From Mycobacteriales bacterium (lineage in GTDB: Bacteria; Actinomycetota; Actinomycetes; Mycobacteriales; SCTD01): 64,000 nucleotides of DNA. Positions within the stretch are counted from its first letter, which is position 1, and every line of letters begins with the position of its first letter. The DNA is taken from the NCBI GenBank assembly GCA_040902655.1, contig JBBDWV010000016.1, forward strand, positions 1 through 64,000, written 5' to 3'. Positions 18,978-37,661 of this stretch are shown here, one piece after another. The position numbers and the translations under genes were made by a program. The notes beneath the pieces are model-generated. The model did not search any database. It was not told where the DNA came from and saw only the letters and a list, made by a program, of their open reading frames with translations.

Positions 18978-19213
18978 AGTGTACGGGGGTGTCCGGGGCG
19001 AGGCGGATGTCAGATCCGATGTAGGTATCGCCAGGCCATCCAGCAGTCGTGACAGACCCTCCGGTCCACGACAAGCCCATCTGGCCGGCGTCAAGCCGTC
19101 CAGCGGCCGACAAACTCCTGGTTCGGCCGTCGGCGCTCCGCCGGTGAGCCTCGCGCGGCCCCCGGTCCGCGGCTCCATGTGCTCAACGGCAGACCTGACA
19201 CAACCCTGAATGG

Positions 19214-22032: not shown

Positions 22033-25000
22033 GCATGCCCCGTGCTGTCGGGAGCGCCCGGGTCGCCAGGCAGGAGCTCGTCGCCGCGGATGAGCATAGG
22101 AAACGCGACGACGGTGCCGTCGGGCGCGGCTTCGAGGTCGTGGGCGTCGATGCCGTCCCAGGCGCCGGGTGCGCCGTCCCAGAGGTAGCTGGTGCAGATG
22201 AGGTCGAGGTCGAGGGCGGCGAGGTAGCGGGCGAGGCTCTCGCGTCCCTGCTCATCGACCTCGGCGGGGACCTCGTCGAGCGCTGCGAGCCGTGCGGACG
22301 TCGCCGGGCTGCGGTCGTACGCGGCGGCGACGGCGGCGAGCATGGGTGCGAGGACGACGAGCCGTCGCTCTCCGCCGGAGAGGCCGGTGCGCTGGCCCCA
22401 GCGTTCGACCTTCTCGGAGCCGGGGCGAGTGATCTCGTAGTGCACGTCGACCCACTCGCGGACATCAACACCGGCGGCGATCCGCTCGGTCATCGTCTCG
22501 CCGTCGGCGGCGTCGATGAGCGACTGCAGGGCGCGGCCGAGTTCGGCGTTCTCCTCGTCGGTGCGCAGCGCGAGGCTGGTCTTGCACGCGAGCTCGTACA
22601 CGCGCCGGGCGCTGGGTGACATGTGGTCGCTGGGGTGAACGCGGACCTGGACGCCGACTCCGGAGCTCGCGGTGGCGGATCGCATCTTCTTGTTGACCTC
22701 CTTGACCCAGTCGTGAAGTTGGGTCCAGGCGGTGCTGATGGCGTTGGGGAGCCGGCCGATGATGAACTCGCTCAGCGCCTCCTCCTCGGCTGCTGCGAGG
22801 GCTTGTTCGGCCTGCTCGGCGAGGTGCTCCGCTCGCTGCGCTGCCTGCGGTGCGGTGTACACAGTGTCGCGGCGGGTGAGCGTGTAGCTGAGCAGGTCGC
22901 CGAGCGGTTCGGCGTTGTCCAGCGCCCAGGTGCCGGCGAGTTTGGCGCGGGCGTCGTCGTACCCGATGAGCAGGGTGCGGCGCACGGTGGTCTTGCGCCC
23001 GATGATCGCGGTGCGGATCTGCTCGAGGAGGTCGTCCTCGACCAGAGGGTGCGTGCCGAGGACGACCTCGCCGACGCCCGGTGCTGCGAGATGCCGTCGC
23101 AGTGCGTGCAGCGCCGCTTCGGCGGCGGGCTGCGCCTCACGCAGGCTCGCCTCGACCGCGGCGACGTTGGTCTCGTGCTTGGCATGATCGGCGATCGCGG
23201 CCTGCAGGAGCCCGTTGATCTCGCTGAGCCGCCTGCCGATCTCGCCGTGCCGGCTGTTGGCCGTGTGCAGTTCCTCCAGCGTCTCGGTGACGCTGCTGCC
23301 GCTCTCGGCCTCCAGCGTCGCAAGCTTGCTGGCCGTCCTGGTCGCCAGCGCGTGGACGTCACGGACGTGAGCGTGCTGCCCAGGCAGCTGTGCCCGGCGT
23401 TCGTCGACGCTGGAGACACCGGCGAGCAGACGCTCAAGGGTGGCCACATGCCGGCCTGCGACGGCCGCTGCCGCGTCACGCAGCTGCTTGGCGCTGTGCT
23501 GGCCGCTCTCGGCGAGACGGGCGAGCGTGTCGAGCTCGGGTGTGAGTCCGAGGGCGACGACGTTGTCGACCCACTGGCTGCGCAGTCGCTGATGTTCGGC
23601 GTGCTCAGCGAGCGCCTTGCCAGCGAGCTCGTCGGCTGCTGACCGGTCATCTCGGGCTGTGCGTGCGGCCGCTGCCCTGCTGCCCTCGGCGGTCCGCAGT
23701 GCCTGCCGGCCCGGGAAAGTGCTGCCGGCGCTGAGCACGACGGTGCGGGTGGACAGCGTCGCCTGTGCCTGCTCGTCGAGGACGTTCGCCTGGCGGTCGA
23801 GCTCGCCGGCCTGCCGCTCCAGCTCGTCGGCCTGGGCGAGCGCGGCGGCGCGACGCTGAGCCGCCCCGATGTACTGCGCCTTCGGAGCGACCTCGCCGGC
23901 AGCGGCCCCGTCAGGGGTGCCGATGGCGGCGCCGGTCCGGAACGTGCCGTCGCGTCCGATGACCAGCTCAGAGTCGCCGCTGAGGGCGGTGGCGGTGTCG
24001 ACGAGCGCGATGCGGCGCAGTACGAGCTCTGCGACTGCAGCGTGAGGGTGCCGGTAGTCGATGCGCAGAACAGCCGCGAGGCTGTCCTGCTGCTCAGCGG
24101 CGTCGGAGTGCACCCGCCATCGGCTGGCGTTTGCTCCGTCGCTGCTCAGCCCGGCGGCCAGTACCCCGGATGCTGCCAGTGCTGCCTCGAGCCGGTCCCG
24201 CTCGGCCTGTGGCACTGCCGGCTGCCACTCGATCGCGTTGCCGAGCGCATCGCTGTCGTCGCCGACGTCGAGCCACGCCGGCCGCGGCAGCGGCAGGAGG
24301 CGTCCGCTGCGCAGCGCCTCGGCTTCCGCACGAAGGACGCCTGCCTGCCCGCGGTGCTGCTGAGCAGCTGCCTGGGCGATGCTGGCCTGCTGGCGGAGCT
24401 CCGCTGCTGCGGCGCTGACTTCTGTCTGCACCCGTGCGGCCCATTCCTCGGCGGCCTCCAGAACGGCGGCTGACTCCGCGCCGCGCTGCTCGTCGATTTC
24501 GTCCTGCTCGACGAGCCCGGCCGCAACCTCGTCAGCCGCGTCCGGGTCCTGCTCGGCCGTGATGTGGGTGCGCAGCTGCCGAACGCTGTCGGAGCTACAC
24601 CAGGCGGCAGCCGCGTCCAGGAGGCCGGCTGCGGCTGCCTTGGCCGCAGCAGTGGCGTCGACGGCGTGGACGGCGGAGCGCTCTGCGACGCCAACGGCGT
24701 GCTCCGCGGCCTTGTCGGCCTCCTCAGCGCGCTTGCGAGCCTGCTCGACCGGCTTGTGCTGGACGACGAGCATCTGGGCCCGCTCGGCTTGCTGCCGCAC
24801 GCTCTCCGCGGTCGCCTGCCACTCCTCCGCTACGGCGCGTAGCGCGGTGGGGTCTGCGCGGACGAGCAGAACCGGCCCGGGGTCGGCGACGTCCTCACCG
24901 ACGGTCAGGACCTCGGCCGGGCGGGTCTCGACCTCGACGAGCGCCGCTGCGGAGGCGCGGGTCGGGTCGCTCTCGAGAGCGCTGGCGTCGGCGGCCTCCA

Positions 25001-26201
25001 GGCTCTCGGACAGCGTCGTCAGGTTGCTGCGCAGGCCCTGGGTCTCCTGGGCGATCCCTCTAGCTGCCTGCTGCAGTGCGCGGATCTCGGCCCCGGCAGC
25101 CGCCTCCTGGGCGGTCAGCGTCTCCCGTAGCTGTGTGAGAACGCCGGCCTGCTTGTACGGCTCGCTGTTCTGCAGGGCCTCGATGTGCCCGGCGAGTTCC
25201 TGCTGTTCCTCGCCGAGCGCCGTCTGCTCAACGGTCAGGGAGGTCTTGGTGTCTCGGCTGCTGGTCAGGAGCTTCTCGTGGTGGCGCAGTTCGCCGCGCA
25301 GCTGCGTCTCTCGCCCAGCCGCGACTTCGGCGGCGCTGTGGACGGCGTTGGTCACCTCGACGACATGGCCGGCCCAGAGCTCAGCGAACTCGCGCAGCGC
25401 TGCGGCGTCGGCGCGGTCACGGGCGAACGCCTCCCGGGTCGCAGCGGAGCCCTCGAGGGCGTCGGCGGTGGCGGTGATGACGTCGTCGGCGACGCCGGGC
25501 AGCGACGCTCGCAGCGCGTCGGCGGCGCCGCGCGGCGAGACCTCGCCGAGCAGGGTCGGGTTGCGGACCTCGCGCAGGCGTGCGGCGAGCAGGTTCATCT
25601 CACCCGGGGTGCTGTGCCACAGGCGGGCCGCCATGTCGGTCACATACGCGCTGCTGTCGTCGAAGACCTGTCCGCCGAGCGCGTCGACGGACTCGGTGAA
25701 CTGCTCGACGGTGAGCGCTGCGCGCCCGGGGCCGTGGAGGCTGAGCCCGTGCAGAGGGCGACCGGGCACGGTGAACGGGATCGCCCGCACCGCCGGCGAG
25801 GCGCCCTCGGAGTACTGCAGGCGCACGCCGTAGCTCTGGAGCTCGTTGGTGTCGGGCGCGGCGAACGTGATCCAGGTGTAGCCGTAGCGGCGCTTGCCGA
25901 CGGCACCTTCGCTCATGAGCAGCTTGAGGGTGGTGTGCCGGGCCTTGCCGGCGGCGAGCTTGCCGGCGTTGAGGTCGAGCAGGTACGGCCACAGCGCTTC
26001 CAGCGCGGTGGTCTTCCCGGTGCCGTTGGGCCCGCGGATGAGCAGTCGCCCGGACTCGGCGGGCAGTTCCAGGTCGCCGTAGCGCCAGATGTTGCTGAGT
26101 CCGGCGCCGACGAGGCGCCAGCGCCCTCCGAATCGGCCGGTGTTGTCGACTGCGGGCTGCAGCGCGTTCTCGGCGAACAGCGCGGTCGCGTCGATGGTCA
26201 T
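22029..26201 (-). CDS. jetC: Wadjet JetC (SMC/MukB-like ATPase, TIGR02680)
   Basis: JetC is the SMC-like motor of Wadjet, thought to dimerise, extrude DNA loops and measure plasmid circles. The 1390-residue protein has Walker A GPNGTGKT at residues 57-64, long Ala/Glu-rich coiled coils through the middle (about 270-1150), the ABC signature LSGGE at 1274-1278 and Walker B with LDEVPAEVD at about 1308. A central segment around residues 620-790 breaks the coiled coil, as a hinge would. It matches TIGR02680 rather than the COG4913 type. ATGA overlaps join it to jetB before and jetD after, so all subunits are made from one message in order A-B-C-D. Confidence 0.92.
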   Translation of the reverse strand: MTIDATALFAENALQPAVDNTGRFGGRWRLVGAGLSNIWRYGDLELPAESGRLLIRGPNGTGKTTALEALWPYLLDLNAGKLAAGKARHTTLKLLMSEGAVGKRRYGYTWITFAAPDTNELQSYGVRLQYSEGASPAVRAIPFTVPGRPLHGLSLHGPGRAALTVEQFTESVDALGGQVFDDSSAYVTDMAARLWHSTPGEMNLLAARLREVRNPTLLGEVSPRGAADALRASLPGVADDVITATADALEGSAATREAFARDRADAAALREFAELWAGHVVEVTNAVHSAAEVAAGRETQLRGELRHHEKLLTSSRDTKTSLTVEQTALGEEQQELAGHIEALQNSEPYKQAGVLTQLRETLTAQEAAAGAEIRALQQAARGIAQETQGLRSNLTTLSESLEAADASALESDPTRASAAALVEVETRPAEVLTVGEDVADPGPVLLVRADPTALRAVAEEWQATAESVRQQAERAQMLVVQHKPVEQARKRAEEADKAAEHAVGVAERSAVHAVDATAAAKAAAAGLLDAAAAWCSSDSVRQLRTHITAEQDPDAADEVAAGLVEQDEIDEQRGAESAAVLEAAEEWAARVQTEVSAAAAELRQQASIAQAAAQQHRGQAGVLRAEAEALRSGRLLPLPRPAWLDVGDDSDALGNAIEWQPAVPQAERDRLEAALAASGVLAAGLSSDGANASRWRVHSDAAEQQDSLAAVLRIDYRHPHAAVAELVLRRIALVDTATALSGDSELVIGRDGTFRTGAAIGTPDGAAAGEVAPKAQYIGAAQRRAAALAQADELERQAGELDRQANVLDEQAQATLSTRTVVLSAGSTFPGRQALRTAEGSRAAAARTARDDRSAADELAGKALAEHAEHQRLRSQWVDNVVALGLTPELDTLARLAESGQHSAKQLRDAAAAVAGRHVATLERLLAGVSSVDERRAQLPGQHAHVRDVHALATRTASKLATLEAESGSSVTETLEELHTANSRHGEIGRRLSEINGLLQAAIADHAKHETNVAAVEASLREAQPAAEAALHALRRHLAAPGVGEVVLGTHPLVEDDLLEQIRTAIIGRKTTVRRTLLIGYDDARAKLAGTWALDNAEPLGDLLSYTLTRRDTVYTAPQAAQRAEHLAEQAEQALAAAEEEALSEFIIGRLPNAISTAWTQLHDWVKEVNKKMRSATASSGVGVQVRVHPSDHMSPSARRVYELACKTSLALRTDEENAELGRALQSLIDAADGETMTERIAAGVDVREWVDVHYEITRPGSEKVERWGQRTGLSGGERRLVVLAPMLAAVAAAYDRSPATSARLAALDEVPAEVDEQGRESLARYLAALDLDLICTSYLWDGAPGAWDGIDAHDLEAAPDGTVVAFPMLIRGDELLPGDPGAPDSTGHA

Positions 26202-27469
26202 GAGGTTGACTCCAGACTCAGCTGCTGCTGCGGACCGTCGCTGTCCGTGCCGGACGCCGAGTCATCCCTGCCGGTGATTGAGCGCGCGGGTGTGCTGGCG
26301 GGTGCGGGCCAGCGGCCGGTCGCGGGTGAGAACCACCAGGTGCGCAGGGCGTCTTCGCGGCGGCCGAGGACGCCGAGCGCCTCGAGCAGTGCCGCGACGT
26401 GCTCGGCCAGCGTCGCCGGCTCAGCCGCGAGGTCGACGCTCCACCCGCCCTTGCCCGCGGCGTATCGGTCGATGAGGACGCTGAGGTGTGCCAGGACGTC
26501 GTGCTCTGTCAGACCGCGCCACCCGGGGCCGGGCGCACCGCTCTGGGTGCCGACCTCGCCGGCGTAGTCGCACAGCAGCAGCGCTGCGTGGCCGACCGTG
26601 CCGGGGACGGGGAAAGGGTGGTCGCCGAGTTCGCGGGCGTGCCGGAACCCCTGCTCGGGGACGATGAACGCGGCGCCTTCTGCGCGTCGTTCCAGGTGCA
26701 GGCCGAACCCGGCGGCGATCTGCGCGCCGTCGTCGGCGCGGACGCGGCGGCTGAGCCAGTCGGCTTCGGACTCGTCCAGGTCGGTCACGTGCACGAGGGT
26801 GTCGTCGACGAGCTTGCGGCGCATTCGTCGCGCCGGGTCGCTCTCACACTCCAGCGCCGTGAGCCACGATCCGGTGTCGTCGCGGGGGTCGCCGGGTCCG
26901 AAGTTGGCGATGACGTGCACGAGCCGGGTGTGGTGAACGGCCAGCAGCACGGGGGCGTCCTCGTCTCGGATGAACCCGTCCACGTCGCCGTCCTCGGGGG
27001 TGACCACGCCGCGTTCGTCCAGCATCTTCAGGGCCTGGACGATCGCGCGTCGCTCGGCGATGTCTCCGGTCGTGGCGATGTCGGCGTCGGCCGCGGCGGC
27101 GCGCGCTGCGGTGACCAGGTGCGCGATGGAGCACTTGGGCGGCAGGCTCTCGGCCGCGGCGACCAGCAGGAAGAACCACGAGCAGGTGAGCGGTGCGGGC
27201 CCGTCAGTGGCCCAGGCGGCGCGGCGCACGGGTGGGCTCTTGCGCAGCCGAACCAGGTCGCGCTCGACGACCAGCACCCAGCCGAGGCGGCTGAGGATGT
27301 CGCGGATGCCGGTGGCGTTGCGGCGGACTGCGGCGATGTGCTCGTCGTCGCGGCCGCCGATTAGCCACGGCTGCACGCACAGACGGCGCAGGACGGCCGC
27401 GGCTTCCTCACCAGCGTCGGGGTTCCAGACCTTGCGTGCACGACTGGTCGCGCCTGCTGCGGTGGTCAT
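26198..27469 (-). CDS. jetB: Wadjet JetB (TIGR02678/DUF2398, MukE-like)
   Basis: JetB is the winged-helix (KITE, MukE-like) accessory subunit that bridges JetA and the JetC heads. This 423-residue protein fits TIGR02678/DUF2398: a start region VWNPDAGEEAAAVLRRLCVQPWLIGG, the DILSRLGWVLVVERDLVRLRKSP segment near residue 65, and CSWFFLLVAAAESLPPKCSIAHLV near residue 95. The end is Pro/Ser-rich and polar. The start MTTAAGATSR overlaps the jetA stop as ATGA; an earlier in-frame ATG would lie inside jetA and give a basic tail unlike the family. Confidence 0.88.
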   Translation of the reverse strand: MTTAAGATSRARKVWNPDAGEEAAAVLRRLCVQPWLIGGRDDEHIAAVRRNATGIRDILSRLGWVLVVERDLVRLRKSPPVRRAAWATDGPAPLTCSWFFLLVAAAESLPPKCSIAHLVTAARAAAADADIATTGDIAERRAIVQALKMLDERGVVTPEDGDVDGFIRDEDAPVLLAVHHTRLVHVIANFGPGDPRDDTGSWLTALECESDPARRMRRKLVDDTLVHVTDLDESEADWLSRRVRADDGAQIAAGFGLHLERRAEGAAFIVPEQGFRHARELGDHPFPVPGTVGHAALLLCDYAGEVGTQSGAPGPGWRGLTEHDVLAHLSVLIDRYAAGKGGWSVDLAAEPATLAEHVAALLEALGVLGRREDALRTWWFSPATGRWPAPASTPARSITGRDDSASGTDSDGPQQQLSLESTS

Positions 27470-29001
27470 GCGACTCCTCCGATGAGGCGGACGGGGCCGC
27501 CCGGGTCGGCCGTGGCGGTCCCGGAGCTCGGCGGCATTGCGACGCTGCCGCGGCGGTGGAACGCGATCTGCCGGTCGGGCAGCAGGATCTGCCAGGTACG
27601 CGCGCGCAGGACTCCGGTGACACCTGGCGTGTGCCACAGCGTGCAGGCCAGCCCGTCGCACTCTCCGGTGCGTGAGCTGGCCCGGGTGCGGCGGCGGGCG
27701 GCGGCGAGCACGGAGGCGTACGCGACGCGGGCTGCGCCGTCGCTGAGCTGGTCGCCTGGCTGTGCGGCGAGGACTTCGGCGACGGCGTCGCGGTGTGTGG
27801 CGAGACGCTCGGCGCGCCGCGCGGCGACGATCGCGGTCGCCTCGGTGTTGTCACGGGCTGCCGGGGCGCGGCCGCGGGCGCCGGTGCGTCCGGTGGCGCG
27901 GAGCAGCTCAGGGATCTCGACGCTGGGTCCGTCGCGCCACGCGGGGTTGCGGGTGAGGTCGGTGTCGTCGGCGGCGCCGTACAGCTTGCGCCAGCGGTGA
28001 TCGCCGAGCACGGCGAGGGTGACGGCCGTGCCGAGGTCCCGGTCGCGGACGGCCTTGGCGAGGGCGAGTGCTCGTGCCCGGGACGTCGCGGTGCCCGAGG
28101 ATGTGTGCAGGCGGCGGAGGTTGGCGTGCATGCCGGGCAGCGCGCGGACCAGGCGCAGCGCGAACCGGGCGGCGCGGCCTGTGTCGGGGCTGAACCAGGC
28201 GGCCAGGCCCGCCCAGTCCTCGGTCCGTCCGCCGCGGGACGCGGTGAGTGCGCCGCTCTGGATGAGCGCTCGTGCCTCGGAGGTGGTGACGGCGGCGTCG
28301 ACGAGGGCGCCGGCGTGGGGCTGGAGGATGTCCAGCGCTGCGGCGGCGCGGGCGGCGCCGCGCTCGAGTTCCGTCGCGACGCGGGTCGCGTAGTTGACGA
28401 GCATCTCCTTGAGCTCGCCTGTGGCTTCGTTGTCGAGGTCGAAGCGGTCCGCGAGGCCGGTGAGGGCGTCTTCGGCGCCGACGAGGGCTCCGTCGAGGTC
28501 GTCGTGGGAGGTGAACAGCTGCCCGATGTGCTCGGCGACCTCCTCCAGTGGCGCGTCGGGATTGCCGGCGAGCCGCTCGAGGCTGCGGACGACGCGCTCC
28601 AGGCTGGACAGCGGGATCTCGCGCAGCGACGGCGTGCCGGCCAGGACGTTGCGGTAGAAGCGCTGAACCTGCCGGCCGACGGGGGTGGCGGTGTAGCGCC
28701 AGTTGCGGGCTAGGAGGTCTGCGTGCCGGAGGATCTGCGAGGTGTCGGTGCGCGCCGACGCGGCGATCCAGCGGCGCAGCGACTCAAGTCGGGCCTCGAC
28801 GGTCTTGACGTCGATCGGCGTGCCGGCGGCGGTCAGCGCTGCGGCGACCTCGCCCGGGGTGAGGTCGTTGACGGAGGTCTCGAGGACGTCCATGACGGCG
28901 ATGTACTCGTCGGACTCACGGGCGAGCAGGTACGCGGTGGCGAGGCGGGCGTCGTCGACGCCGACGGACAGCTCTTCGCCGCCCGCCTTGTCTTCGCTCA
29001 T
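27466..29001 (-). CDS. jetA: Wadjet JetA (TIGR02677/DUF2397, kleisin-like)
   Basis: JetA is the kleisin-like subunit closing the SMC ring, first gene of the operon. The 511-residue protein matches TIGR02677/DUF2397: YLLARESDEYIAVMDVLETSVNDLTPGEVAAAL near the N-terminus, a helical middle (EDALTGLADRFDLDNEATGELKEMLVNYATRVATELERG), and the late WQILLPDRQIAFHRRG. I chose the ATG at MSEDKAGG; an upstream ATG adds 35 residues of atypical sequence. A short divergent gene lies 146 bp upstream, so the operon promoter should be in that gap. No recognisable regulator sits next to it. Confidence 0.88.
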   Translation of the reverse strand: MSEDKAGGEELSVGVDDARLATAYLLARESDEYIAVMDVLETSVNDLTPGEVAAALTAAGTPIDVKTVEARLESLRRWIAASARTDTSQILRHADLLARNWRYTATPVGRQVQRFYRNVLAGTPSLREIPLSSLERVVRSLERLAGNPDAPLEEVAEHIGQLFTSHDDLDGALVGAEDALTGLADRFDLDNEATGELKEMLVNYATRVATELERGAARAAAALDILQPHAGALVDAAVTTSEARALIQSGALTASRGGRTEDWAGLAAWFSPDTGRAARFALRLVRALPGMHANLRRLHTSSGTATSRARALALAKAVRDRDLGTAVTLAVLGDHRWRKLYGAADDTDLTRNPAWRDGPSVEIPELLRATGRTGARGRAPAARDNTEATAIVAARRAERLATHRDAVAEVLAAQPGDQLSDGAARVAYASVLAAARRRTRASSRTGECDGLACTLWHTPGVTGVLRARTWQILLPDRQIAFHRRGSVAMPPSSGTATADPGGPVRLIGGVA

Positions 29002-29147
29002 CGCCACGCTCACCGTCCCCGTCCGGCTCGTGGGCGCACGGTAGAGCGGAGCTGTGACACTTCTGGGCGCTTTGCCGAGGTCCGCGGCGGCGGCGCCCGC
29101 CCGCACCCCGGGGACCTGCCGAGCGCCTGGTGGAGCTCGTGGCGAAC

Positions 29148-29446
29148 ATGATGGGCCGTATGGCTGCTGCGTTCGCTCACTCGGGTCCGTGGAACATCCA
29201 CCAGTGGCTCGGGTGGGACCGCTGCGCCAACGCCCGTTGCCAGACCGAGCTCGGCGTGGACCACGTCACGCTGACCACACGGCGCATGTCCGCCGCTTCT
29301 GCTGTGTCGAGCACATCGCCGAAGGACAGGCGGCGTGGAACGACGTGCTCCACCAGGCCCAGGTCGACGGCAGCGGCGAGCAGGCAGCGCTGCACGCGCT
29401 GTTCGGCCCGCCGATCAAGGACCGAACAGGCCCACGCGCTCAGTAG
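29148..29446 (+). pseudogene. Small Cys/His protein gene broken by a frameshift
   Basis: The gene is divergent from jetA. One frame encodes MAAAFAHSGPWNIHQWLGWD followed by CANARCQTELGVDHVTL. The coding signal then moves to the -1 frame near 29275-29290 and continues as HVRRFCCVEHIAEGQAAW and ALHALFGPPIKDR to a TAG. Joined, this would be a protein of about 98 residues with a CxxxxC and a CCVEH, a plausible zinc site. No family was recognised. The shift could be a real lesion, a sequencing error, or less likely programmed frameshifting; no obvious slippery heptamer was seen. Confidence 0.5.
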
Positions 29447-29492
29447 CTCGCACCGGCACCCTGGCGGTCGAGCTGCCATAGTGCCAGATAAC

Positions 29493-29678
29493 CTACGTCA
29501 GGTAGCCCTCCGTGTGCAGGGCGATGATCTCGTTGCCGGCTTGCCAGCGGAGCTCCTCGATGAGGGCGTCCTGCTCTGCGTCGACCGCGGTCAGTCGGCT
29601 CCGCAGCTCCAGTTCCAGTCGGCGGCTCTCACCCAGGGCTCGGTTGATGCTGGTCAGGTGAAGGGCTCGTCGCCCCAC
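29493..29678 (-). CDS. Short helical protein overlapping the beta-flower gene
   Basis: This 61-residue reading frame starts at a GTG inside the last codons of the beta-flower gene, which it overlaps by 25 bp. The peptide INRALGESRRLELELRSRL and AVDAEQDALIEELRWQ has the heptad pattern of a coiled coil and normal high-GC codon use, so it looks translated. No clear Shine-Dalgarno precedes the GTG. It may be a separate small gene using translational coupling, or the displaced C-terminus of the upstream gene after a frameshift. No family was recognised. Confidence 0.45.
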   Translation of the reverse strand: MGRRALHLTSINRALGESRRLELELRSRLTAVDAEQDALIEELRWQAGNEIIALHTEGYLT

Positions 29679-29929
29679 ATCGCCGAGCCAGCTCGGTCCG
29701 CCGACGCTGAGCCGGCGCTCGCGCTGGTGGCAAACGGCGAGCCGACGCTCGCGCTGTCGGTGCTGCGGTACACGGCGCGGTCGCCCACGATGGTGGCGGC
29801 GTACCGCCCGTTGGGCGCGTAGATCTTGTTGCCGCGGCGACGCCCGACGTGACGGCCGTTGCGGTCGAAGACGTTGTCTCCGCTGAGCTTCAGCGGTGCT
29901 CCGTTCTTGATGTACAGGCGCTCGCTCAT
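29654..29929 (-). CDS. 4-fold beta-flower domain protein
   Basis: This 91-residue protein carries four short repeats of the type x-h-x-x-x-G: LYIKNGAPLKL, NVFDRNGRHVGR, KIYAPNGRYAAT and AVYRSTDSASVGS, as in proteins named 4-fold beta flower. Their role is unknown, though they often appear near mobile or defence genes. The last 30 residues are Ser/Ala-rich and end WGDEPFT. A strong GGAGGAG lies 3 bases before the ATG. The palindrome at 30011-30028 lies 82 bp upstream and may control it. The overlapping short frame downstream leaves the natural C-terminus open to question. Confidence 0.65.
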   Translation of the reverse strand: MSERLYIKNGAPLKLSGDNVFDRNGRHVGRRRGNKIYAPNGRYAATIVGDRAVYRSTDSASVGSPFATSASAGSASADRAGSAMWGDEPFT

Positions 29930-30010
29930 CTACTCCTCCAACGAGGTGATCGACGTGTCGAGCCGACCGTAGCCGCGGCCCCCGACACTTCCACGACCTT
30001 CGCCTGTACC

Positions 30011-30028
30011 TGTACATGGTCATGTACA
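30011..30028. promoter_or_regulatory. Palindromic operator-like site 1 (perfect)
   Basis: TGTACATG-GT-CATGTACA is a perfect 8-2-8 inverted repeat in the gap between the zinc-ribbon gene end and the beta-flower gene start, 82 bp upstream of the latter. The same motif recurs at 30445-30462 and, degenerated, at 30877-30894. The regular geometry suggests a dimeric DNA-binding protein site. Confidence 0.6.
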
Positions 30029-30074
30029 GCGCACGTGGCAGACCCCGGAAGAGCGGTGGCGTGGCGTGACGTGC

Positions 30075-30284
30075 TCAGCGCTTGCGCTCAGCCCACGTTC
30101 CCCGGCATTCCGGGCAGCTCCAGGCGAAGGTGCCCGGCTCGCTGGACCAGACGATGAGGCGGCGCGTCACATGTCCCGCGCCCCCGTCGTCGCAACCGCA
30201 CCTCGGGCACGGGTCGGAGACGTGCGGGCCGGATAAGTTCCGGGTGCGAACGCGCCGTGCCCGCTCTGCCCGAGCTGCAGTCAT
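30075..30284 (-). CDS. Small zinc-ribbon protein
   Basis: This 69-residue protein has a basic N-terminal stretch (TAARAERARRVRTRNL) and two cysteine knuckles, CPRCGC (residues about 26-31) and CPEC (about 57-60), the layout of a zinc ribbon. The ribbon core between them (RRLIVWSSEPGTFAWS) is beta-rich. Such proteins bind nucleic acid or act as small subunits; no specific family was recognised. It ends at RKR-stop. The gap to the next plus-strand gene (30285-30477) contains palindrome site 2. Codon use and compact motifs support it as real although short. Confidence 0.6.
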   Translation of the reverse strand: MTAARAERARRVRTRNLSGPHVSDPCPRCGCDDGGAGHVTRRLIVWSSEPGTFAWSCPECRGTWAERKR

Positions 30285-30444
30285 CACGTCGTGTCGCTGC
30301 CCTCTCACCCGCAGGGACAACCCCGGAGCAGGGGCTTCACGTTCACGCCTGGGTCGGCCACCCGACCGTTGAGCTCGCCCGGCCTGTTGTGGCGCGGCCC
30401 CGGTGGCGCCGCAGACGGTGCTGAGCGATCGGTGCGCCTGCGCT

Positions 30445-30462
30445 TGTACATGAACATGTACA
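30445..30462. promoter_or_regulatory. Palindromic operator-like site 2 (perfect)
   Basis: TGTACATG-AA-CATGTACA is an 8-2-8 inverted repeat ending 15 bp before the ATG of the 102-residue gene, so a bound protein would cover its ribosome-binding region and promoter-proximal DNA. Downstream bases (GACGAG) resemble those after site 3. Confidence 0.6.
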
Positions 30463-30477
30463 GACGAGGCTGCTCGA

Positions 30478-30786
30478 ATGCCGCCCGCCCGACGTCGACG
30501 CCGTATCGGGAAGACACCCGACGCCGCTGTCACGGCGGCCGTAACGGCAGCGCTGGAGCACATCCAAGCTCTGCCCACCGCGGCTGAGCGGGCACGGGCA
30601 GCGACCGACTTCATCGCCAGGTTCGACGAGGCCCGCAGGCAAATTGCCCTGGCCAGGGTGGCCGATGTCCGAGCAATGCTCGCCGAGAACACGCTGCGCG
30701 CCACGGCGTTGGCGCTGGACCTGAGTGTCAACGTGATCGTGCAGATCCGCGACGAAGACGACGTCCCACCCGCCACCCGGCGGTAG
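30478..30786 (+). CDS. Small helical protein with HTH-like C-terminus
   Basis: This 102-residue protein has a basic N-terminus (PPARRRRRIGK), then predicted helices (DAAVTAAVTAALEHIQAL; ARAATDFIARFDEARRQIALARVADVRAML), and a C-terminal segment NTLRATALALDLSVNVIVQI that resembles a helix-turn-helix (Ala-leu-Ser-turn pattern) of the sigma-region-4/HTH_23 kind. No catalytic motif is present. A perfect palindrome lies 15 bp upstream of the start, which suggests that this or another HTH protein autoregulates the gene. The Shine-Dalgarno is a moderate GACGAGG. I could not assign a family; the DNA-binding role is inferred. Confidence 0.6.
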   Translation: MPPARRRRRIGKTPDAAVTAAVTAALEHIQALPTAAERARAATDFIARFDEARRQIALARVADVRAMLAENTLRATALALDLSVNVIVQIRDEDDVPPATRR

Positions 30787-30876
30787 CCAGCTCCGCCAGG
30801 TGTCTGGTGCGCCAAGACGTCGTGGCCACATCAGGTGCCCCTAAAAAGTCGGACAGTACGGCGACCTCCCGTGCCC

Positions 30877-30894
30877 TGTACATGAGCATCTACG
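30877..30894. promoter_or_regulatory. Palindromic operator-like site 3 (degenerate)
   Basis: TGTACATG-AG-CATCTACG keeps the left arm exactly and six of eight right-arm positions of sites 1 and 2. It sits between two genes that converge (the 102-residue gene and the PIN gene), downstream of both, so it is unlikely to be a promoter operator. It may be a decayed copy or mark a lost gene start. Similarity to site 2 extends to the following GGGCGAG. Confidence 0.4.
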
Positions 30895-30943
30895 GGCGAG
30901 CTGACGGTTGCGCTGCTGCCTCGCGCCGCCCCGCCGAGCGCGG

Positions 30944-31522
30944 TCACAGCGGCGGGAGTCCTGCGTCGAAGGGACGCATCTGGACGTACACCTGCTGCCA
31001 GGTGAAGCCACCGGCGATCCACCCTGGCTGCGCCTGCTTGAGCACCTGCTTGGTGCTCCACAGGGCCAGCTGCCCCGGAGCAGCGCTGCGTCGCAACCAC
31101 CCCTGCTCGCGGGCAGCCCGGTCGCGGCCGTCCTGCTCGTCGATGAGGACGATGACGTTGGTCCCGGCCTGTGCGAGCGCGGACGCGTGCGCGAGCACCA
31201 TGATCTCGCCGAGGCTCTTGCGCGACCGGACCCGGGTCGCAGCGGGGACGCCGCTGATGCGGGTCACTGCCGCGGTGAACACCGAGGGGGTGAGCTCGTC
31301 GGACAGGATGCTGATGCGGCCGGACGCGGTGAGCTTGCGCCAGGTCGCGGCGACCGCGGTCGAGGAGAACAGCGGGTCCTTGGCCATGCCCTGCACCTCG
31401 GTGTCGATGCGCGCCGGCGCACACATCTGCAAGCCCACATGATCGGCGGCCTTGGCCAGCACGTTCTGCTGGCCGACGGCGAGGAAGTTCAAGACCGGCC
31501 CAGCGTCGAGCAGAACACTCAC
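30944..31522 (-). CDS. PIN-like domain protein (toxin-like RNase)
   Basis: This 192-residue protein is third in the XRE-ImmA/IrrE-PIN operon. It has PIN-type acidic positions: Asp6 in VSVLLDAGPVLNFL, Glu106 in SLGEIMVLAHASALAQ, and Asp128/Asp131 in VIVLIDEQDGRDRAARE, the order expected for a metal-dependent RNase. PIN proteins are often toxins of toxin-antitoxin loci. The C-terminus (after about 150) is helical with no further motif. The GTG start overlaps the ImmA/IrrE stop by 4 bp. Relationship to the DUF4411 PIN group found beside XRE-COG2856 genes is likely but not confirmed. Confidence 0.7.
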   Translation of the reverse strand: MSVLLDAGPVLNFLAVGQQNVLAKAADHVGLQMCAPARIDTEVQGMAKDPLFSSTAVAATWRKLTASGRISILSDELTPSVFTAAVTRISGVPAATRVRSRKSLGEIMVLAHASALAQAGTNVIVLIDEQDGRDRAAREQGWLRRSAAPGQLALWSTKQVLKQAQPGWIAGGFTWQQVYVQMRPFDAGLPPL

Positions 31523-32334
31523 GAGGAGGGCGACGGCGGCGCGAAGCCCGGCGGCAACAGCGGAGCGTCCTCGTCCCAGTCGTGACCGACCGTGGAGCCG
31601 GCATCGTCTGTCGCCGCTGAGAGCTCCAGCTCGGCGTCGAGGATCTCGGCCGGGACGCCGTACCAGGCTGAGAGCTCCGCGATGCCAAGCACACCGATGC
31701 GGTACCCCTCCGCTGCCCGGCGCATCAGGCTCTGGGGCGCGCGGGGCTGCGAAGACGCAGCCGACATCGCCTGGTACTGGCTGAGCCAGCCGTAGCGGGC
31801 CGCGACCGTCCCGGCGCGGAACCGGGACCACTGCTGGGAGGTGTCGTCGTCGATGAGCCTGGCGTCCTTGAGCTGGATTGCCGCGATGTGCGGCGAGACG
31901 CAGAACTCCTGCACCAGATGCGACAGCCACGCCTCGTCTACCGCGACGTCAGCCCCGTGCGGCGACACTGCAGCCAGCGGAAGGAGCAGGTGCCGGGCGA
32001 ACGCGTCGGCCTGGATCTCCTCGTCGCTGCGCACACCGGGCGGATGGTCCAGTTCGCGGTCCACGTCACCGGCCAGGATGTGCCCGAGCTCGTGCGCGAT
32101 CGACGACCGCTGCCTCATGGGGTGCTCGGTGATGGCTACGGCGATCACGGCCCGCCCGCTGAGCGGGTCCGCCATGGACAGGCCGTGCTCGGCGCCGTCG
32201 GCCGACATCGCCAGAACGTCACAGCCGACCGTGTCGTGGACGAGCTCGAAGAGGTCGCCCAGCGGACGAGTGCCAATCTCGAAGCGCTCGCGGAACGCCT
32301 CCGCGCGGCGGCGTGCCTCCTGTTCGTTGGTCAC
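31519..32334 (-). CDS. ImmA/IrrE family metallo-endopeptidase
   Basis: This 271-residue protein has the zinc protease motif HELGH at residues 81-85, in SSIAHELGHILAGDVD, and a downstream acidic ligand region EEIQADAFARHLLLP typical of COG2856/ImmA-IrrE. Family members cleave a partner XRE repressor and so relieve repression after damage or another signal (ImmA of ICEBs1, IrrE of Deinococcus). Here the partner is presumably the XRE protein encoded immediately before it, with which it shares an ATGA overlap. The last 30 residues are acidic and Pro/Ser-rich. The next gene encodes a PIN protein. Confidence 0.88.
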   Translation of the reverse strand: MTNEQEARRRAEAFRERFEIGTRPLGDLFELVHDTVGCDVLAMSADGAEHGLSMADPLSGRAVIAVAITEHPMRQRSSIAHELGHILAGDVDRELDHPPGVRSDEEIQADAFARHLLLPLAAVSPHGADVAVDEAWLSHLVQEFCVSPHIAAIQLKDARLIDDDTSQQWSRFRAGTVAARYGWLSQYQAMSAASSQPRAPQSLMRRAAEGYRIGVLGIAELSAWYGVPAEILDAELELSAATDDAGSTVGHDWDEDAPLLPPGFAPPSPSS

Positions 32335-32684
32335 GCCATCGCGACGCCCTGCTCGGTCAGGTACTCGTCCAGCTCCAGGTAGGCGTACAGCCGCTCCCGC
32401 ATCGCGGCCATCGGAGATGCTGTGCCGTCGGTTCGGGCTGCGATCCGGGCCCGGCGTCGGATTTGCGCGCCGGCGGTGATCGCCGCGGCGCGAACGCCGA
32501 GGAGGTCGGCAAGTACGACGATCTCGTCGCCCTTGAGCGGGCGCTGGCCCTGCTCGATGCGGGAGTACGTCGGCTGAGACACCTCGATCGCGTCGGCGGC
32601 ATCGTGCTGAGACACGCGCGCTGCCTCTCGAACCTCGCGTAGCCGACGGCCGAGCGCCACATGATCAAGCTCCATGACACTCAC
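32331..32684 (-). CDS. XRE-family transcriptional regulator / antitoxin
   Basis: This 117-residue protein carries an N-terminal HTH_3 domain (LGRRLREVREAARVSQHDAADAIEVSQPTYSRIEQGQRPLKGDEIVVLADLLGV, about residues 11-64). The rest (to LYAYLELDEYLTEQG) may be the cleavage or partner-binding tail. It heads the XRE-ImmA/IrrE-PIN operon and probably represses it. The start is taken at GTG (VSVMELD), since AGGAGG lies 8-9 bases upstream; an in-frame ATG three codons later is also possible. An imperfect inverted repeat spans the start and promoter, fitting autoregulation. Confidence 0.85.
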   Translation of the reverse strand: MSVMELDHVALGRRLREVREAARVSQHDAADAIEVSQPTYSRIEQGQRPLKGDEIVVLADLLGVRAAAITAGAQIRRRARIAARTDGTASPMAAMRERLYAYLELDEYLTEQGVAMA

Positions 32685-32717
32685 TGAATACTTCCTCCTT
32701 GGCTATTCACAGTGTCA
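32675..32717. promoter_or_regulatory. Inverted repeat around the XRE gene start (putative autoregulatory operator)
   Basis: The left arm TGACACTCACTGAAT (32675-32689) and right arm ATTCACAGTGTCA (32705-32717) are inverted copies, differing only by the CAC/G at the centre of each arm. The Shine-Dalgarno AGGAGG lies between them. An XRE dimer or tetramer bound to both arms would block transcription and translation starts of its own operon. Confidence 0.5.
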
Positions 32718-32741
32718 CAGCCCTACGACAGAAGCAACAGG

Positions 32742-33303
32742 CTCCGCTTAGACGGGCCCCCGTCATTGTGAACGCCCGCTCGACATCGTCGGGATCGGGG
32801 CCGTGCGCCCCGGTCGGCACTGGCACCAGGGTTACGCCGGCCTGCTCGGCGGCCAGCAGCGCGCCCCAGTACGTGGGCGACTCGATCAGCAGCGGCCGGC
32901 CTGGGCCGACCAGCGCCCGGAAGATTGAGCTCAGCCCGCTTTGACTCCCCGCGACGACTAGCACGTCGCGGGCGGAAGGCGGCGTGACGCCGATCGGGGC
33001 ACCGGCGGCGACCTGACCGGCGAACCACGTCTGCAGCTCCGGCAGCCCTGCAGCCGGGCACGACAGCGCCGCCTCGGACCTCGAGGCCTTGGCCAGTGCC
33101 GCCCTGACGAGACGCTCCGGGAGCAGCTCGCGACCGGGGTAGCCGGAGTGCAGCGCGATGGCGTCCGGCGCCCCGGCCCGCTGGGTGGACGACAGAGCCG
33201 ACAGCCGGGCGTGCGGCGCCCCAAGGGCAGCGGTCTGCCAGGAAAAATCAGCCGGGCGGGGCTGGCGCACCACGCGTCCGAGCCCTCGCGCACGACGGCG
33301 CAC
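32742..33303 (-). pseudogene. Truncated PLP-dependent aminotransferase (MocR/class I-II type)
   Basis: About 180 residues of a fold-type I aminotransferase are clear: IALHSGYPGRELLPERLVRAAL, SCPAAGLPELQTWFAGQVAAG, DVLVVAGSQSGLSSIFRALVGPGRPLLIESPTYWG, and VTLVPVPTGAHGPDPDDVERAF. The pattern is that of the aminotransferase domain of MocR-like regulators. It stops after TMTGARL, before the PLP-lysine half, and the next bases belong to the XRE operon promoter. The N-terminal helix-turn-helix expected for MocR is not recognisable upstream. So both ends are lost, and the 3' break marks a probable edge of the inserted island. Confidence 0.7.
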
Positions 33304-33769
33304 GCCTGCAGACCGGTACGGGCGCCCTCGTCGCGCCCCAGGAGATGCGGCCCGTCCTGCTTCGCCAGCGTCCGCTGACCCTTATCAGTGGCGGCACCCA
33401 TGACAGTGCCCTGCTGACGATCTGGGGGCAGGACGCGCGGATCTGGGGGACTCGCCCCAGGCGCACACCTCAGCGAGGTGCGTGAGCAGGAGCCGGCCTG
33501 ACGGCCGGCAATGGCTGAGGCGTGAGTCGCAGCGGATCCGCGCTACGGGCGGCCACTGTTCTGGGGGCATCAGAGGTCGCCGACGACGTCAGGCCGCCGC
33601 TGCCCACGCGGCGCCCGGCTCAACGGTCGAGGGTTGCTTCGACGCTGCCGGACAAGATGACGTCATCCGGACGACTTCGTCGTCACCGGATCACCCTGAC
33701 GCTCCGCGGACGAGAATGACGTCGCGGGGATGGCTCGGGTCAATGTCCCGGACCTGACACCGGACCGCT
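33304..33769. other. 466-bp stretch without a recognisable gene
   Basis: No frame gives a protein with convincing composition or motif. The left part may contain eroded upstream sequence of the aminotransferase gene. The right part holds a hairpin at 33665-33691. I see nothing else here. Confidence 0.5.
33665..33691 (-). terminator. Hairpin downstream of the SDR gene
   Basis: ATCCGG-ACGAC, loop TTC, GTCGT-(CA)-CCGGAT forms an 11-bp stem with a 2-base bulge. It lies about 80 bp beyond the SDR stop codon on the same strand. There is no T-run, which is common for terminators in very GC-rich actinobacteria. Assignment is tentative. Confidence 0.4.
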
Positions 33770-34615
33770 TCAGTCGTCGAAGTCGGCGTCCCGGGCGACG
33801 TGGTCCCACGCGGCCCACTCCGCGAGACGCTGCTGGTAGGTCGCCGGAGCGACGTCGGCAGCAAGCTTGCCGAGCAGCAGACGGCGTGGCGGCTGCGGGT
33901 CGTCCAGCACGGTCAGCAGCGCCTGCGCCGCCTTGTGCGGGTCACCGGGCTGGGTCCGCGCCAGCGAGCCCGACATCGCCGAACGGCGCGCGGCGAGCAG
34001 CTCGTCGTACTCCGGCATCGGGTTCGCCCGCACCATGCTGTCGCCGTTCCAGTCGGTGCGGAACGGGCCGGGCTCGACGATGGTCACCCCGATCCCGAAG
34101 CCGGCGACCTCCTGGGCCAGCGACTCCGAGAACCCCTCCAGTGCCCACTTGCTCGCGTGGTAGATGCCGGTGTTGAGGAAGCCGGCCACGCCCCCGATGC
34201 TGGAGATCTGGAACAGGTGACCGGCGCCTTGCGCGCGCATCACGGGCAGCACGGCCTGCGTGCACCACAGGGCACCGAAGACGTTGACCTCGAACTGGTC
34301 GCGGACCTCCTGCTCGCCCGCCTCCTCCACCGCCCCGGCGAGGCCGTACCCGGCGTTGTTGACCAGCACATCGAGCCGGCCGGTGAACGAGGTCGCCTCC
34401 GCGACGACCCGCTCGACCGCGGTTCTGTCCGTGACGTCCAGTGCCAGCGCGAGGGCGGTGTCGGGATGGGCAGCGACGAGGTCGTCGAGCTGGGCCGGCT
34501 TCCGGGCTGTCGCGACGACGCGGTCGCCGGCCTGCAGGGCGACGTCGGCGAACGCGCGTCCGAGGCCGCGGGACGCGCCGGTGACCAGCCAGGTGCGCGG
34601 GGGAGGAAGTGGCAT
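33770..34615 (-). CDS. SDR family oxidoreductase
   Basis: This 281-residue classical short-chain dehydrogenase has the NAD(P)-binding TGASRGLG near residue 11, NNAG in DVLVNNAGYGLAG, catalytic Ser in FQISSIGGVAGF, and YxxxK in YHASKWALEGF. An Arg after the first strand-helix (VVATARKPAQL) suggests NADP preference. The substrate is unknown. The sequence resembles the large group annotated as SDR oxidoreductases of the oxidoreductase/ketoreductase class. The start MPLPPPRTWLVTG is preferred to an upstream ATG 71 codons earlier. It is followed upstream by a 22-bp tandem repeat and the VOC gene on the same strand. Confidence 0.9.
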   Translation of the reverse strand: MPLPPPRTWLVTGASRGLGRAFADVALQAGDRVVATARKPAQLDDLVAAHPDTALALALDVTDRTAVERVVAEATSFTGRLDVLVNNAGYGLAGAVEEAGEQEVRDQFEVNVFGALWCTQAVLPVMRAQGAGHLFQISSIGGVAGFLNTGIYHASKWALEGFSESLAQEVAGFGIGVTIVEPGPFRTDWNGDSMVRANPMPEYDELLAARRSAMSGSLARTQPGDPHKAAQALLTVLDDPQPPRRLLLGKLAADVAPATYQQRLAEWAAWDHVARDADFDD

Positions 34616-34640
34616 GTCCCGGAGCAACCGGACCGGCGGG

Positions 34641-34684
34641 CCGGCTGTTCCGCCGTCAGGCCCCGGCTGTTCCGCCGTCAGGCC
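34641..34684. repeat. 22-bp unit repeated twice in tandem
   Basis: The unit CCGGCTGTTCCGCCGTCAGG plus CC occurs twice with no mismatch in the gap between the VOC stop codon and the SDR start. The second copy ends on the first base of the VOC stop codon. It is probably a local duplication; no function is evident. Confidence 0.8.
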
Positions 34685-35205
34685 TACGCCGGCGCGTCGA
34701 CCGGACCGGGGAGCAGCCGGCCGGCAGTGCCGAGACCGCTCCACCGACGCACCTCGCCGGCCAGGTCCAGCCGGTCCACCGGGGCGCTGTCCTCGTAGCT
34801 GCCCCAGTCCTCCCGCGGCAGCATCCACATCACCTCGAACTCGTTGCCGTCCGGGTCGGCACCGTAGATGCTCTTGGTCGCGCCGTGGCTGGACTCGCCG
34901 GTGTAGGCGCCGGCGTCGACCAGCGTCGCGCGGGCCTGTTCGAGTTCGTCGATGGTGTCCACCTGCCAGGCCAGGTGGTAGAGCCCGATCGCGCCGTCCG
35001 GCCTGGGGGCGGCAGCCGATCCGAGGCCGAACAGACCCAGGTCGTGGTGGTTGCCCGAGCGGGGCAGGCGCAGGAACACGGCGTTCGCCCGCGGCTCACG
35101 CACCACGACCTGCATCCCGAACACCTCCGTCCAGAACCGGAGCGAGCGCTCCAGGTCGCTGACGAACAGCACGGCGTGGTTGAGACGGACTGCGGCGACG
35201 GCCAT
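34684..35205 (-). CDS. VOC (glyoxalase/dioxygenase-like) family protein
   Basis: This 173-residue vicinal-oxygen-chelate protein has LNHAVLFVSDLERSLRFWTEVFGMQVV at the N-terminus, LYHLAWQVDTIDELEQA in the middle and DPDGNEFEVMWML at the end. The His of LNHAV, His of YHLAW and Glu of NEFEV are the usual metal ligands. The pattern resembles catechol-2,3-dioxygenase-like or methylmalonyl/antibiotic-resistance members, but the substrate is undetermined. I start it at MAVAAVRLNH; ATG codons 9 and 12 bases upstream are also possible. It is divergent from the MFS gene and in line with the SDR gene. Confidence 0.88.
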   Translation of the reverse strand: MAVAAVRLNHAVLFVSDLERSLRFWTEVFGMQVVVREPRANAVFLRLPRSGNHHDLGLFGLGSAAAPRPDGAIGLYHLAWQVDTIDELEQARATLVDAGAYTGESSHGATKSIYGADPDGNEFEVMWMLPREDWGSYEDSAPVDRLDLAGEVRRWSGLGTAGRLLPGPVDAPA

Positions 35206-35342
35206 ACCGACCATCATGGCGCTTCCCGTGGCCGATGACCCGCCAGGGCCGCATGATCTGGTCGACTTCGGGGTCCGCATGCCGGCCCCCGACCGGGGCA
35301 CGGTCGGGGTCACGGGTACGGGCGAGGGAGGCGGGACCAGAC

Positions 35343-36575
35343 GTGGGAGGCGATCAGCACCGGCCCGGCTTCCGGACCGTGCTGGCGCAGCCGCAGTTCC
35401 GCCGCCTGTGGACGGCGCGGACGGTGAGCCAGTCGGGCGACGTGTTCAGCTTTGTCGCGCTCGCGATCCTCATCTACCGGCTGACCGGCTCAGGCCTGGG
35501 CGTGGCCGGCGTCGTCGTGGCCGAGATCCTGCCGGTGCTGCTCCTGGCACCGGTCGCCGGCGTGGTCGTGGACCGGCTCCCCCGCATCCGCGTCATGGTG
35601 GCCGCCGATCTGGTGCGGGCCGCGTTCGCGATCGTGCTCGCCGCGTGGCACGACGAGCCGCTGGTGGTGTACGCGGTGGCGTTCGGTCTGTCGGCGGGCG
35701 CCGTCTTCTTCAATCCCGCGGCCCATTCGGTGCTGCCGTCGATCGTGCGCGAGCACGAGATCGTCGCGGCCAACAGTGCGACCTGGACGGCTGCGGTGCT
35801 GTCGCAGGTCGTGCTCGCGCCCGTGTCCGGTGGGCTGGTGGCCCTGGTCGGGCCGGCTTGGGCGTTCGCGCTCAACGCCGCGAGCTTCCTCGTCTCGGCG
35901 CTGGTCCTGCGCGGCCTGCGGCTGATCGAGCCGCCCGGCGACGTCGGCCGGCGGCGGTTGCTCGCCGAGGCGAAGGAGGGCGTTCTCCTGGTAGCCGGGG
36001 ACCGCCTGCTGCGGGCGCTGGCGATCGGGCAGCTGCTCGCCGCGCTGTCGGCCGGAGCGACCAGCGCGCTGCTCGTCGTGCTGGCCGCCGAGCAGTTGCG
36101 TGCTCCGGCGGATGCCTACGGGCTGCTCGTCGGAGCCATCGGTCTGGGCGCCGCACTCGGGCCGGCGTTGCTGCTGCGCCTGATTCCCGACCCCCGCCGA
36201 CCGCTGTTCGTCTTCGGTCCGTACGTGGTCAGAGGCGCGGTCGACCTCGTGCTGGCCTCCGTGCGCAATCTCCCGGCCGCGGCCGGCGCACTCGCGGTCT
36301 ACGGCGTCGCGACCTCGACCGGCGGGGTGACGTTCAACAGCCTGCTGCAGTCCCACGTCACCGACCGCACCCGCGGGCGGGTGTTCTCGCTGATGGACCT
36401 GCTGTGGCAGACCGGGCGGCTGGCCAGCCTCGGCATCGGTGGCCTGCTCGCCGATACCGTCGGCATCCGCGCCGTCTACTACCTCGGCGGCGTCCTGCTG
36501 CTCGTCGCGGCCGCCGTCGGCTTCGCCGCCACCCGCCGGCCGGGCTCCCGCAACGCCGTGCCGCGGCAAGCATGA
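35343..36575 (+). CDS. MFS transporter
   Basis: This 410-residue membrane protein of the MFS_3/enterobactin-exporter-like type has about ten to twelve hydrophobic segments. The first helix contains FSFVALAILIYRLTGSGLGVAGVVVAEILPVLLLAPVAGVVVDRLPR, where the loop VVDRLPRIRVM is the MFS signature between helices 2 and 3. The middle loop (RGLRLIEPPGDVGRRRLL) separates two six-helix halves. It is probably an exporter of a small compound or drug; the substrate is unknown. The GTG start after a GGGAGG is preferred; the frame opens 36 codons earlier with unsuitable Ser/Arg-rich sequence. Confidence 0.88.
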   Translation: MGGDQHRPGFRTVLAQPQFRRLWTARTVSQSGDVFSFVALAILIYRLTGSGLGVAGVVVAEILPVLLLAPVAGVVVDRLPRIRVMVAADLVRAAFAIVLAAWHDEPLVVYAVAFGLSAGAVFFNPAAHSVLPSIVREHEIVAANSATWTAAVLSQVVLAPVSGGLVALVGPAWAFALNAASFLVSALVLRGLRLIEPPGDVGRRRLLAEAKEGVLLVAGDRLLRALAIGQLLAALSAGATSALLVVLAAEQLRAPADAYGLLVGAIGLGAALGPALLLRLIPDPRRPLFVFGPYVVRGAVDLVLASVRNLPAAAGALAVYGVATSTGGVTFNSLLQSHVTDRTRGRVFSLMDLLWQTGRLASLGIGGLLADTVGIRAVYYLGGVLLLVAAAVGFAATRRPGSRNAVPRQA

Positions 36576-36587
36576 CGGCCGATCCCG

Positions 36588-36866
36588 CTACCGCCCGGCG
36601 GTGTTGCGCGGCTGCGGGCCGTAGTTCTTGTCCAGGACCGCGACCGCGATGAGGACGAACGTCACGGCGCGCACCAGGTACACCCACGTCCGCGCCTCGG
36701 ACTCCGGGTCGAGCACGGACAGCAACACCCGGTTCAGGGCGAACACCGCGAAGGCGAGCGAGAAGGCCATGAACAACCGGTCCCGCGTCGTGCGCCAGTA
36801 CTTCCAGAAGAAGACCGCGACGCCCAGCGAGGCCAGCATCGTGGCGCCCTGGATGAAGTCGTTCAC
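36588..36866 (-). CDS. DUF5985 membrane protein, second copy
   Basis: This 92-residue protein has three hydrophobic helices: DFIQGATMLASLGVAVFFWKYW, LFMAFSLAFAVFALNRVLLSVL and WVYLVRAVTFVLIAVAVLDKNY, with the TRDRLF turn between the first two. That is the DUF5985 pattern (function unknown). The GTG start overlaps the stop of a related gene by 4 bp, and that gene overlaps a winged-helix gene, giving a three-gene unit. The end of the MFS gene is 13 bp away on the other strand. Confidence 0.7.
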   Translation of the reverse strand: MNDFIQGATMLASLGVAVFFWKYWRTTRDRLFMAFSLAFAVFALNRVLLSVLDPESEARTWVYLVRAVTFVLIAVAVLDKNYGPQPRNTAGR

Positions 36867-37126
36867 CGGGACTCCCAGATCAGGCCGAACAGCAGGATGG
36901 AGACGCCCACCAGGCCGGAGGCGTCCCGGAGCAGGGACAGGTCCAAATCCTGCAGGACCTGGCGGTCCACGAGCAGGAGCACGTTGTTCACCGCCAGGGC
37001 GCTGAAGCACAGGCCGGCCCACAGCAGCAACCGGACCCGCCCTGCCAGGTAGCTCCGCACGAGGAGAACGGCGCACAGCAGGCTGGTGGCCGCACACAGC
37101 GTGTAGGCGACGACGGCGCCGCTCAT
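36863..37126 (-). CDS. DUF5985 membrane protein, first copy
   Basis: This 87-residue protein is similar in layout to its downstream neighbour: VAYTLCAATSLLCAVLLVRSYL, VRLLLWAGLCFSALAVNNVLLLVD and SGLVGVSILLFGLIWESR. The two probably form a heteromeric membrane pair derived from duplication. The ATG overlaps the stop of the winged-helix gene, so the three products are coupled. No function is known. Confidence 0.65.
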   Translation of the reverse strand: MSGAVVAYTLCAATSLLCAVLLVRSYLAGRVRLLLWAGLCFSALAVNNVLLLVDRQVLQDLDLSLLRDASGLVGVSILLFGLIWESR

Positions 37127-37587: not shown

Positions 37588-37661
37588 ATGCAGCGCATCA
37601 TGCCGCCTCGCTCCGGCCGGCGCCCCCCGCCCCCTCTGGGGACGGGGACGGTAGGCAGGGG

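Follow-up and report, generated by a model that had tools for sequence, protein, structure and literature searches.

Three clustered palindromes in a Wadjet-containing defence island as candidate operators of a local regulator

A private cluster of palindromes

A palindromic element of 18 letters, TGTACATG-NN-CATGTACA, formed by 8-bp arms around a fixed 2-bp spacer, occurs three times among small genes in the genome of a Mycobacteriales bacterium. Since it is exclusive to one locus of the assembly and shows background counts elsewhere, it is a private, clustered element and not a widespread regulon. In our preferred reading, to which we give a probability of about 0.4, the palindromes would be operators of a local dimeric regulator, the likeliest binder being a 102-residue protein encoded beside them.

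The window, that is, the whole stretch of 64,000 nucleotides that was analysed, contains two exact copies and one degenerate copy, none of them assigned to a strand. Site 1 (30011-30028) reads TGTACATG-GT-CATGTACA, lies 81 bp 5' of the start of a beta-flower-like gene and, once its flanking C and G are counted, constitutes a 20-bp palindrome (CTGTACATG-GT-CATGTACAG). Site 2 (30445-30462) reads TGTACATG-AA-CATGTACA, lies directly in front of the likely ribosome-binding site (GACGAGG) of the 102-residue gene and is separated by 15 bp from the ATG of this gene. Site 3 (30877-30894) reads TGTACATG-AG-CATCTACG; its two changes both fall in the right arm, leaving the left arm unaltered, and it falls where the 102-residue and PIN-like genes converge, with no recognisable gene downstream. 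Three near-identical dyads are packed in this manner into 884 bp, and the central dinucleotide differs from site to site (GT, AA and AG). A mismatch search returned the very coordinates given in the original prediction, whose statement that sites sit just upstream of gene starts stands for the 102-residue gene, measured from site end to ATG, and only loosely for the beta-flower gene. The same bases can also be read as two 6-bp palindromes (TGTACA) spaced 12 bp apart and flanking TGNNCA. In the sequences adjoining the sites, 7 of 10 positions match in two comparisons (about 1.3% each for random 10-mers), a post hoc observation that is suggestive of a palindromic element slightly longer than 18 bp. 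The outer stems that RNA folding placed beyond the palindrome did not rise above those of shuffled sequences, and the outer complementarity counted by hand was near chance. The start-to-start distance is 434 bp between sites 1 and 2 and 432 bp between sites 2 and 3, a near-equal spacing that exists despite unrelated sequence in both intervals and for which no explanation was found.

The rarity of the element is manifested at every scale of search. With up to three mismatches, the window holds the three sites and a single overlapping register shift at 30005, in keeping with the earlier claim that no further full copy is present, and dinucleotide shuffles of the window gave a mean of 0.04 matches at this threshold. 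When the search was extended to the whole assembly (3,558,883 bp, or 3.56 Mb, in 62 contigs), sites 1-3 were the only matches with up to two mismatches, about 0.05 being expected from base composition; at three mismatches, five more places were detected outside the cluster, one each on five contigs, where base composition predicts about one. The looser pattern TGTACA-N6-TGTACA, with one mismatch allowed, returned sites 1 and 2 only. Chance recurrence of the palindrome was rejected by a third-order Markov simulation: of 300 simulated windows, a single one had a perfect 8+8 palindrome with a second copy at most 1.5 kb away, and the real window contains exactly one such pair, constituted by sites 1 and 2. 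Searches and simulation together uphold the description of the motif as non-random, confined to its locus and perfectly dyadic with a fixed 2-bp spacer. The genome-wide distribution, clustered at one locus, contradicts the regulon that had been envisaged, as no site with up to two mismatches lies outside the 0.9-kb stretch and none was found at other promoters.

In other genomes the motif is not enriched. In 399 genomes from the same order, the number of matches per genome with up to two mismatches was similar to that of a reversed-pattern control. The exact palindrome is present in 1 of 24 family genomes, the present one, and a search of its 23 family relatives recovered neither the palindrome nor the 102-residue gene, an outcome to be expected of a private regulator-operator pair. 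In the GTDB genomes (257 Gb), the exact motif occurs in 97 stretches, not far from the figure of about 60 that a rough estimate of chance gives for 16 fixed bases and equal base frequencies. Twelve actinobacterial loci with the exact motif were inspected; the site falls within a long ORF in most of them, and several represent nearly the same coding stretch, common to Microbacterium, Lentzea and Isoptericola. The near-chance count and the mostly intra-ORF position of the actinobacterial sites rule out a widespread motif. Two multi-copy loci (L048 and L021) both proved to be hexanucleotide microsatellites made of tandem TGTACA arrays, and a literature search for the palindrome sequence as an operator returned nothing relevant.

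Genomic setting and neighbouring genes

Judged from gene content, the setting of the palindromes is a genome-specific insertion, a defence island. This assignment derives from the fact that the flanking blocks, dnaJ-hrcA at one end and DEAD-box-hemW at the opposite end, keep their gene order in relatives, while the relative loci with hrcA and DEAD-box on one contig carry neither Wadjet genes nor the small genes discussed here. The interval in the present genome holds JetA, JetB and JetC, all very strong PADLOC matches to type II Wadjet, and a fourth gene (20689-22032), which its location alone marks as JetD. Wadjet is an anti-plasmid defence system. After the Wadjet genes come the small genes and then an XRE gene, an ImmA-type peptidase gene and a PIN-like gene. 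The location in a defence island, already proposed in the original prediction, is borne out by Wadjet together with the CapH/CapP-like XRE and ImmA genes. The interval from hrcA to DEAD-box/hemW (18958-37662) is a variable insertion spot in the family, occupied here by the type II-like Wadjet.

The 102-residue gene (30478-30786, plus strand) has a positive codon-usage score and encodes a basic helical protein of 11 kDa with a pI of 11.2, which is the leading, still unproven, candidate for binding the palindromes. No family match was obtained in Pfam, NCBIfam or PADLOC, those in PHROGs were insignificant, and the comparison with PDB sequences gave no match up to E 10. Likewise, no convincing relative was recovered from the family, 395 class genomes, plasmids, phages or viral contigs; matches with E values of 0.003-0.009 were discarded because none was a convincing protein once read. 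From the single sequence, AlphaFold predicts a helical hairpin (pLDDT 86) with no clear helix-turn-helix, both runs (no alignment) placing one long uninterrupted helix in the protein, and a fold search with this single-sequence model gave no significant match. Inspected by eye, the C-terminal half (AMLAENTLRATALALDLSVNVIVQI) looks like a helix-turn-helix, a resemblance that the AlphaFold model does not support, and the segment LDLSVNVIVQI resembles the second half of such a motif.

Downstream of site 1 lies the beta-flower-like gene (29654-29929, minus strand), with a weak match to Pfam PF21784 (E 0.006). Relatives of this gene, which are 53-59% identical in other actinobacteria and 53% identical on mycobacterial plasmids, are not accompanied by the palindrome, so the element does not travel with it. 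A 61-residue ORF recognised by its codon-usage score (29493-29678, minus strand) overlaps the 3' end of the beta-flower gene and is possibly co-transcribed with it. A 69-residue ORF (30075-30284, minus strand) and the 102-residue gene point away from each other on either side of site 2; the ORF combines a weak zinc-ribbon match (CPRC...CPEC) with a negative codon-usage score, and its status as a gene is doubtful. Other observations concern the small genes and their relatives. At 29130-29446 (plus strand), a small gene containing cysteines (GWDRCANARCQTELGVDHVTL...RRFCCVEHIAEGQ) is broken across two reading frames; since its relative in L141 is uninterrupted, the copy in the window is, by this comparison, a pseudogene or has an assembly error in it. 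In locus L142, a long inverted repeat (GCAAGGTAGGTCCGGAC...GTCCGGACCTACCTTGC) precedes the beta-flower relative and a related sequence ending in TTGGCGGATT lies after it (1370-1430 and 1915-1980), and this relative is possibly a repeat-bounded unit. On Mycobacterium intracellulare plasmids, beta-flower relatives are found directly after hadA/kasB (L267, 3992-4270; L268, 1992-2270).

Beyond site 3, the PIN-like gene (30944-31522) was identified by motif and has no Pfam match, the ImmA-type peptidase gene (31519-32334) matches PF06114 and the PADLOC capP model, and the XRE gene (32331-32684) matches the PADLOC capH model. This trio (30944-32684) recurs across several actinobacterial families. 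The PIN-like gene is present in 16 of 395 class genomes, the present one counted, and at 13 loci with PIN-like relatives, most of them with an adjoining ImmA-type gene, the best match to the palindrome has 5-6 mismatches. The XRE promoter of the window carries another dyad, (C)TGAATA-n-TATTCAG, which is also found in L251, the best trio relative (53% identity in the PIN-like protein); immediately 5' of the XRE start it reads CTGAATgacaaggaagggttTATTCAG in L251 and TGTGAATAgccaaggaggaagTATTCAG in the window. In both, the dyad sits around the XRE ribosome-binding region (window 32676-32730). This second dyad is likely the true XRE operator. The XRE protein had been named in the original prediction as a possible binder of the 18-bp palindrome, a proposal that now looks unlikely given that trios elsewhere have no palindrome and that a different conserved dyad occupies the XRE promoter.

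A local operator set and its alternatives

The preferred reading involves a dimeric DNA-binding protein that would act on this small gene cluster alone. Bound to site 2 as a dimer, it would mask the promoter or start region of the 102-residue gene, whose repression would amount to autoregulation; from site 1, a dimer would govern the pair of beta-flower and 61-residue genes; and the weaker site 3, about 430 bp off, might add cooperative binding or DNA looping. We infer protein binding to the sites, the identity of the 102-residue protein as the binder and repression as the effect. The sites, their symmetry, their exclusivity in the genome and their position relative to genes are direct observations. 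Support for a local operator set comes from site 2, as the gene that starts 15 bp after it scores as coding and specifies a basic helical protein, and from site 1, located within the upstream region of a second small gene. The clustering of the dyads at a single locus, the separate dyad at the XRE promoter, which leaves the 102-residue protein as the local candidate, and the precedent of RptR (see below) speak for it as well. Several facts count against it: the 102-residue protein lacks a recognised DNA-binding domain and has a long uninterrupted helix in AlphaFold models made with no alignment, no sigma-70-like promoter was found at site 1 or site 2, site 3 has no downstream gene, and relatives of the beta-flower and PIN-like genes occur elsewhere without the palindrome. 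The most specific form of the proposal, in which the orphan would define a new family of small helical repressors outside the known helix-turn-helix classes, reading the 18-bp (or paired TGTACA) palindrome, controlling beta-flower-type genes in a Wadjet island and looping about 430 bp, is a long shot.

The absence of a recognised DNA-binding domain also leads to the idea that the operators serve, in place of the 102-residue protein, a regulator whose gene lies in another part of the genome or on the element that introduced the island, and a perfect 8+2+8 dyad would fit many dimeric regulators. A host regulator, however, normally has more sites, and none with up to two mismatches exists in the rest of the assembly; the nearest alternative, XRE, has its own conserved dyad, and XRE-ImmA-PIN trios elsewhere do not carry the motif, which makes this origin of the regulator rather unlikely. 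If the palindromes were instead recombination or cassette-boundary sequences, for example serine recombinase crossover sites, they would delimit two single-gene segments of about 415 bp. The near-equal spacing (434 and 432 bp), about one small ORF per interval, the symmetric arms around a 2-bp core and the position inside a genome-specific insertion would all agree with it. Serine recombinases cut at the central dinucleotide, yet the dinucleotides here are unlike one another; moreover, no recombinase was recognised among the genes scanned around the sites, beta-flower and PIN-like relatives elsewhere are not flanked by the motif, and the two segments have no common sequence beyond the sites, so that such a role is improbable. 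The dissimilarity of the segments also ruled out a tandem duplication of units of about 430 bp.

Two further explanations do without a DNA-binding dimer. A period-6 structure is visible in each site (TGTACA-TGNNCA-TGTACA), TGTACC precedes site 1, and tandem TGTACA arrays yield the motif in unrelated DNA, as in L048 and L021; the sites might then be functionless remnants of an imperfect hexanucleotide repeat. This also has a low probability, as it does not account for three separate copies 430 bp apart in DNA of 72.5% GC, nor for copies of about three units in which both arms are conserved and the centre is variable. Action in RNA, as a short 5'-leader hairpin affecting translation or mRNA stability, would be in line with the folding of sites 1 and 2 into 8-pair stems with a 4-base loop and with the contact between site 2 and the likely ribosome-binding site. 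Nevertheless, the folds did not stand out significantly from those of shuffled sequences (z -1.6 to -0.7), the comparison with Rfam families gave no match, and the changes in site 3 break the stem with no compensation, all of which makes a hairpin function very improbable.

As a local operator set, the trio of palindromes would constitute a real, local and ordinary-looking regulatory feature, with a regulator that is unproven and possibly new. Its significance is modest because nothing outside the locus has yet been tied to the palindromes. A compact orphan protein beside a perfect private operator nonetheless provides a directly testable pair, and the locus could give the first functional handle on a small gene of the beta-flower type.

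Comparison with known regulatory systems

Few cases (RptR, CapH/CapP, CapW and CapK/CapS) have been worked out that show how the genes of a defence island are kept silent. Classical dimeric repressors of the cI, TetR and GntR types employ dyad operators of 15-20 bp with a fixed spacer, often as several sites of differing quality, one of them beside the regulator's own start. The palindromes described here share with these operators the dyad length, the fixed spacer, the unequal sites and the location of one site at the start of a candidate regulator, but, apart from XRE, no member of such families was recognised among the proteins scanned around the sites.

The XRE and ImmA genes, 1.5 kb from the sites, match the PADLOC models of capH and capP, an XRE repressor and an ImmA-like protease according to a secondary account (Lau et al. 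2022, as cited in PMC13373217). The likeness ends at the DNA, since the XRE promoter here has (C)TGAATA-n-TATTCAG and not TGTACATG, and the trio relatives have no palindrome. A further resemblance is offered by RptR, a small helical dimer encoded by the first gene of a defence island. It acts on a set of three repeated palindromes to repress its own promoter, is the repressor of type I restriction-modification/DarTG defence islands and could not be placed in any family by its sequence at the time of its first study (PMC12255303). Both cases present a small helical protein in a defence island, three repeated palindromes and no family by sequence. The RptR sites, however, are 6-bp TAGCTA palindromes arranged as 9-bp direct repeats in one promoter (PMC12255303), whereas those described here are 18-bp palindromes about 430 bp apart, and RptR and its site are widely conserved (PMC12255303), unlike the 102-residue protein. 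PDB sequence and fold searches, the latter with the single-sequence model, gave no significant match. RptR would be best regarded as a working parallel to the 102-residue protein and not as its relative.
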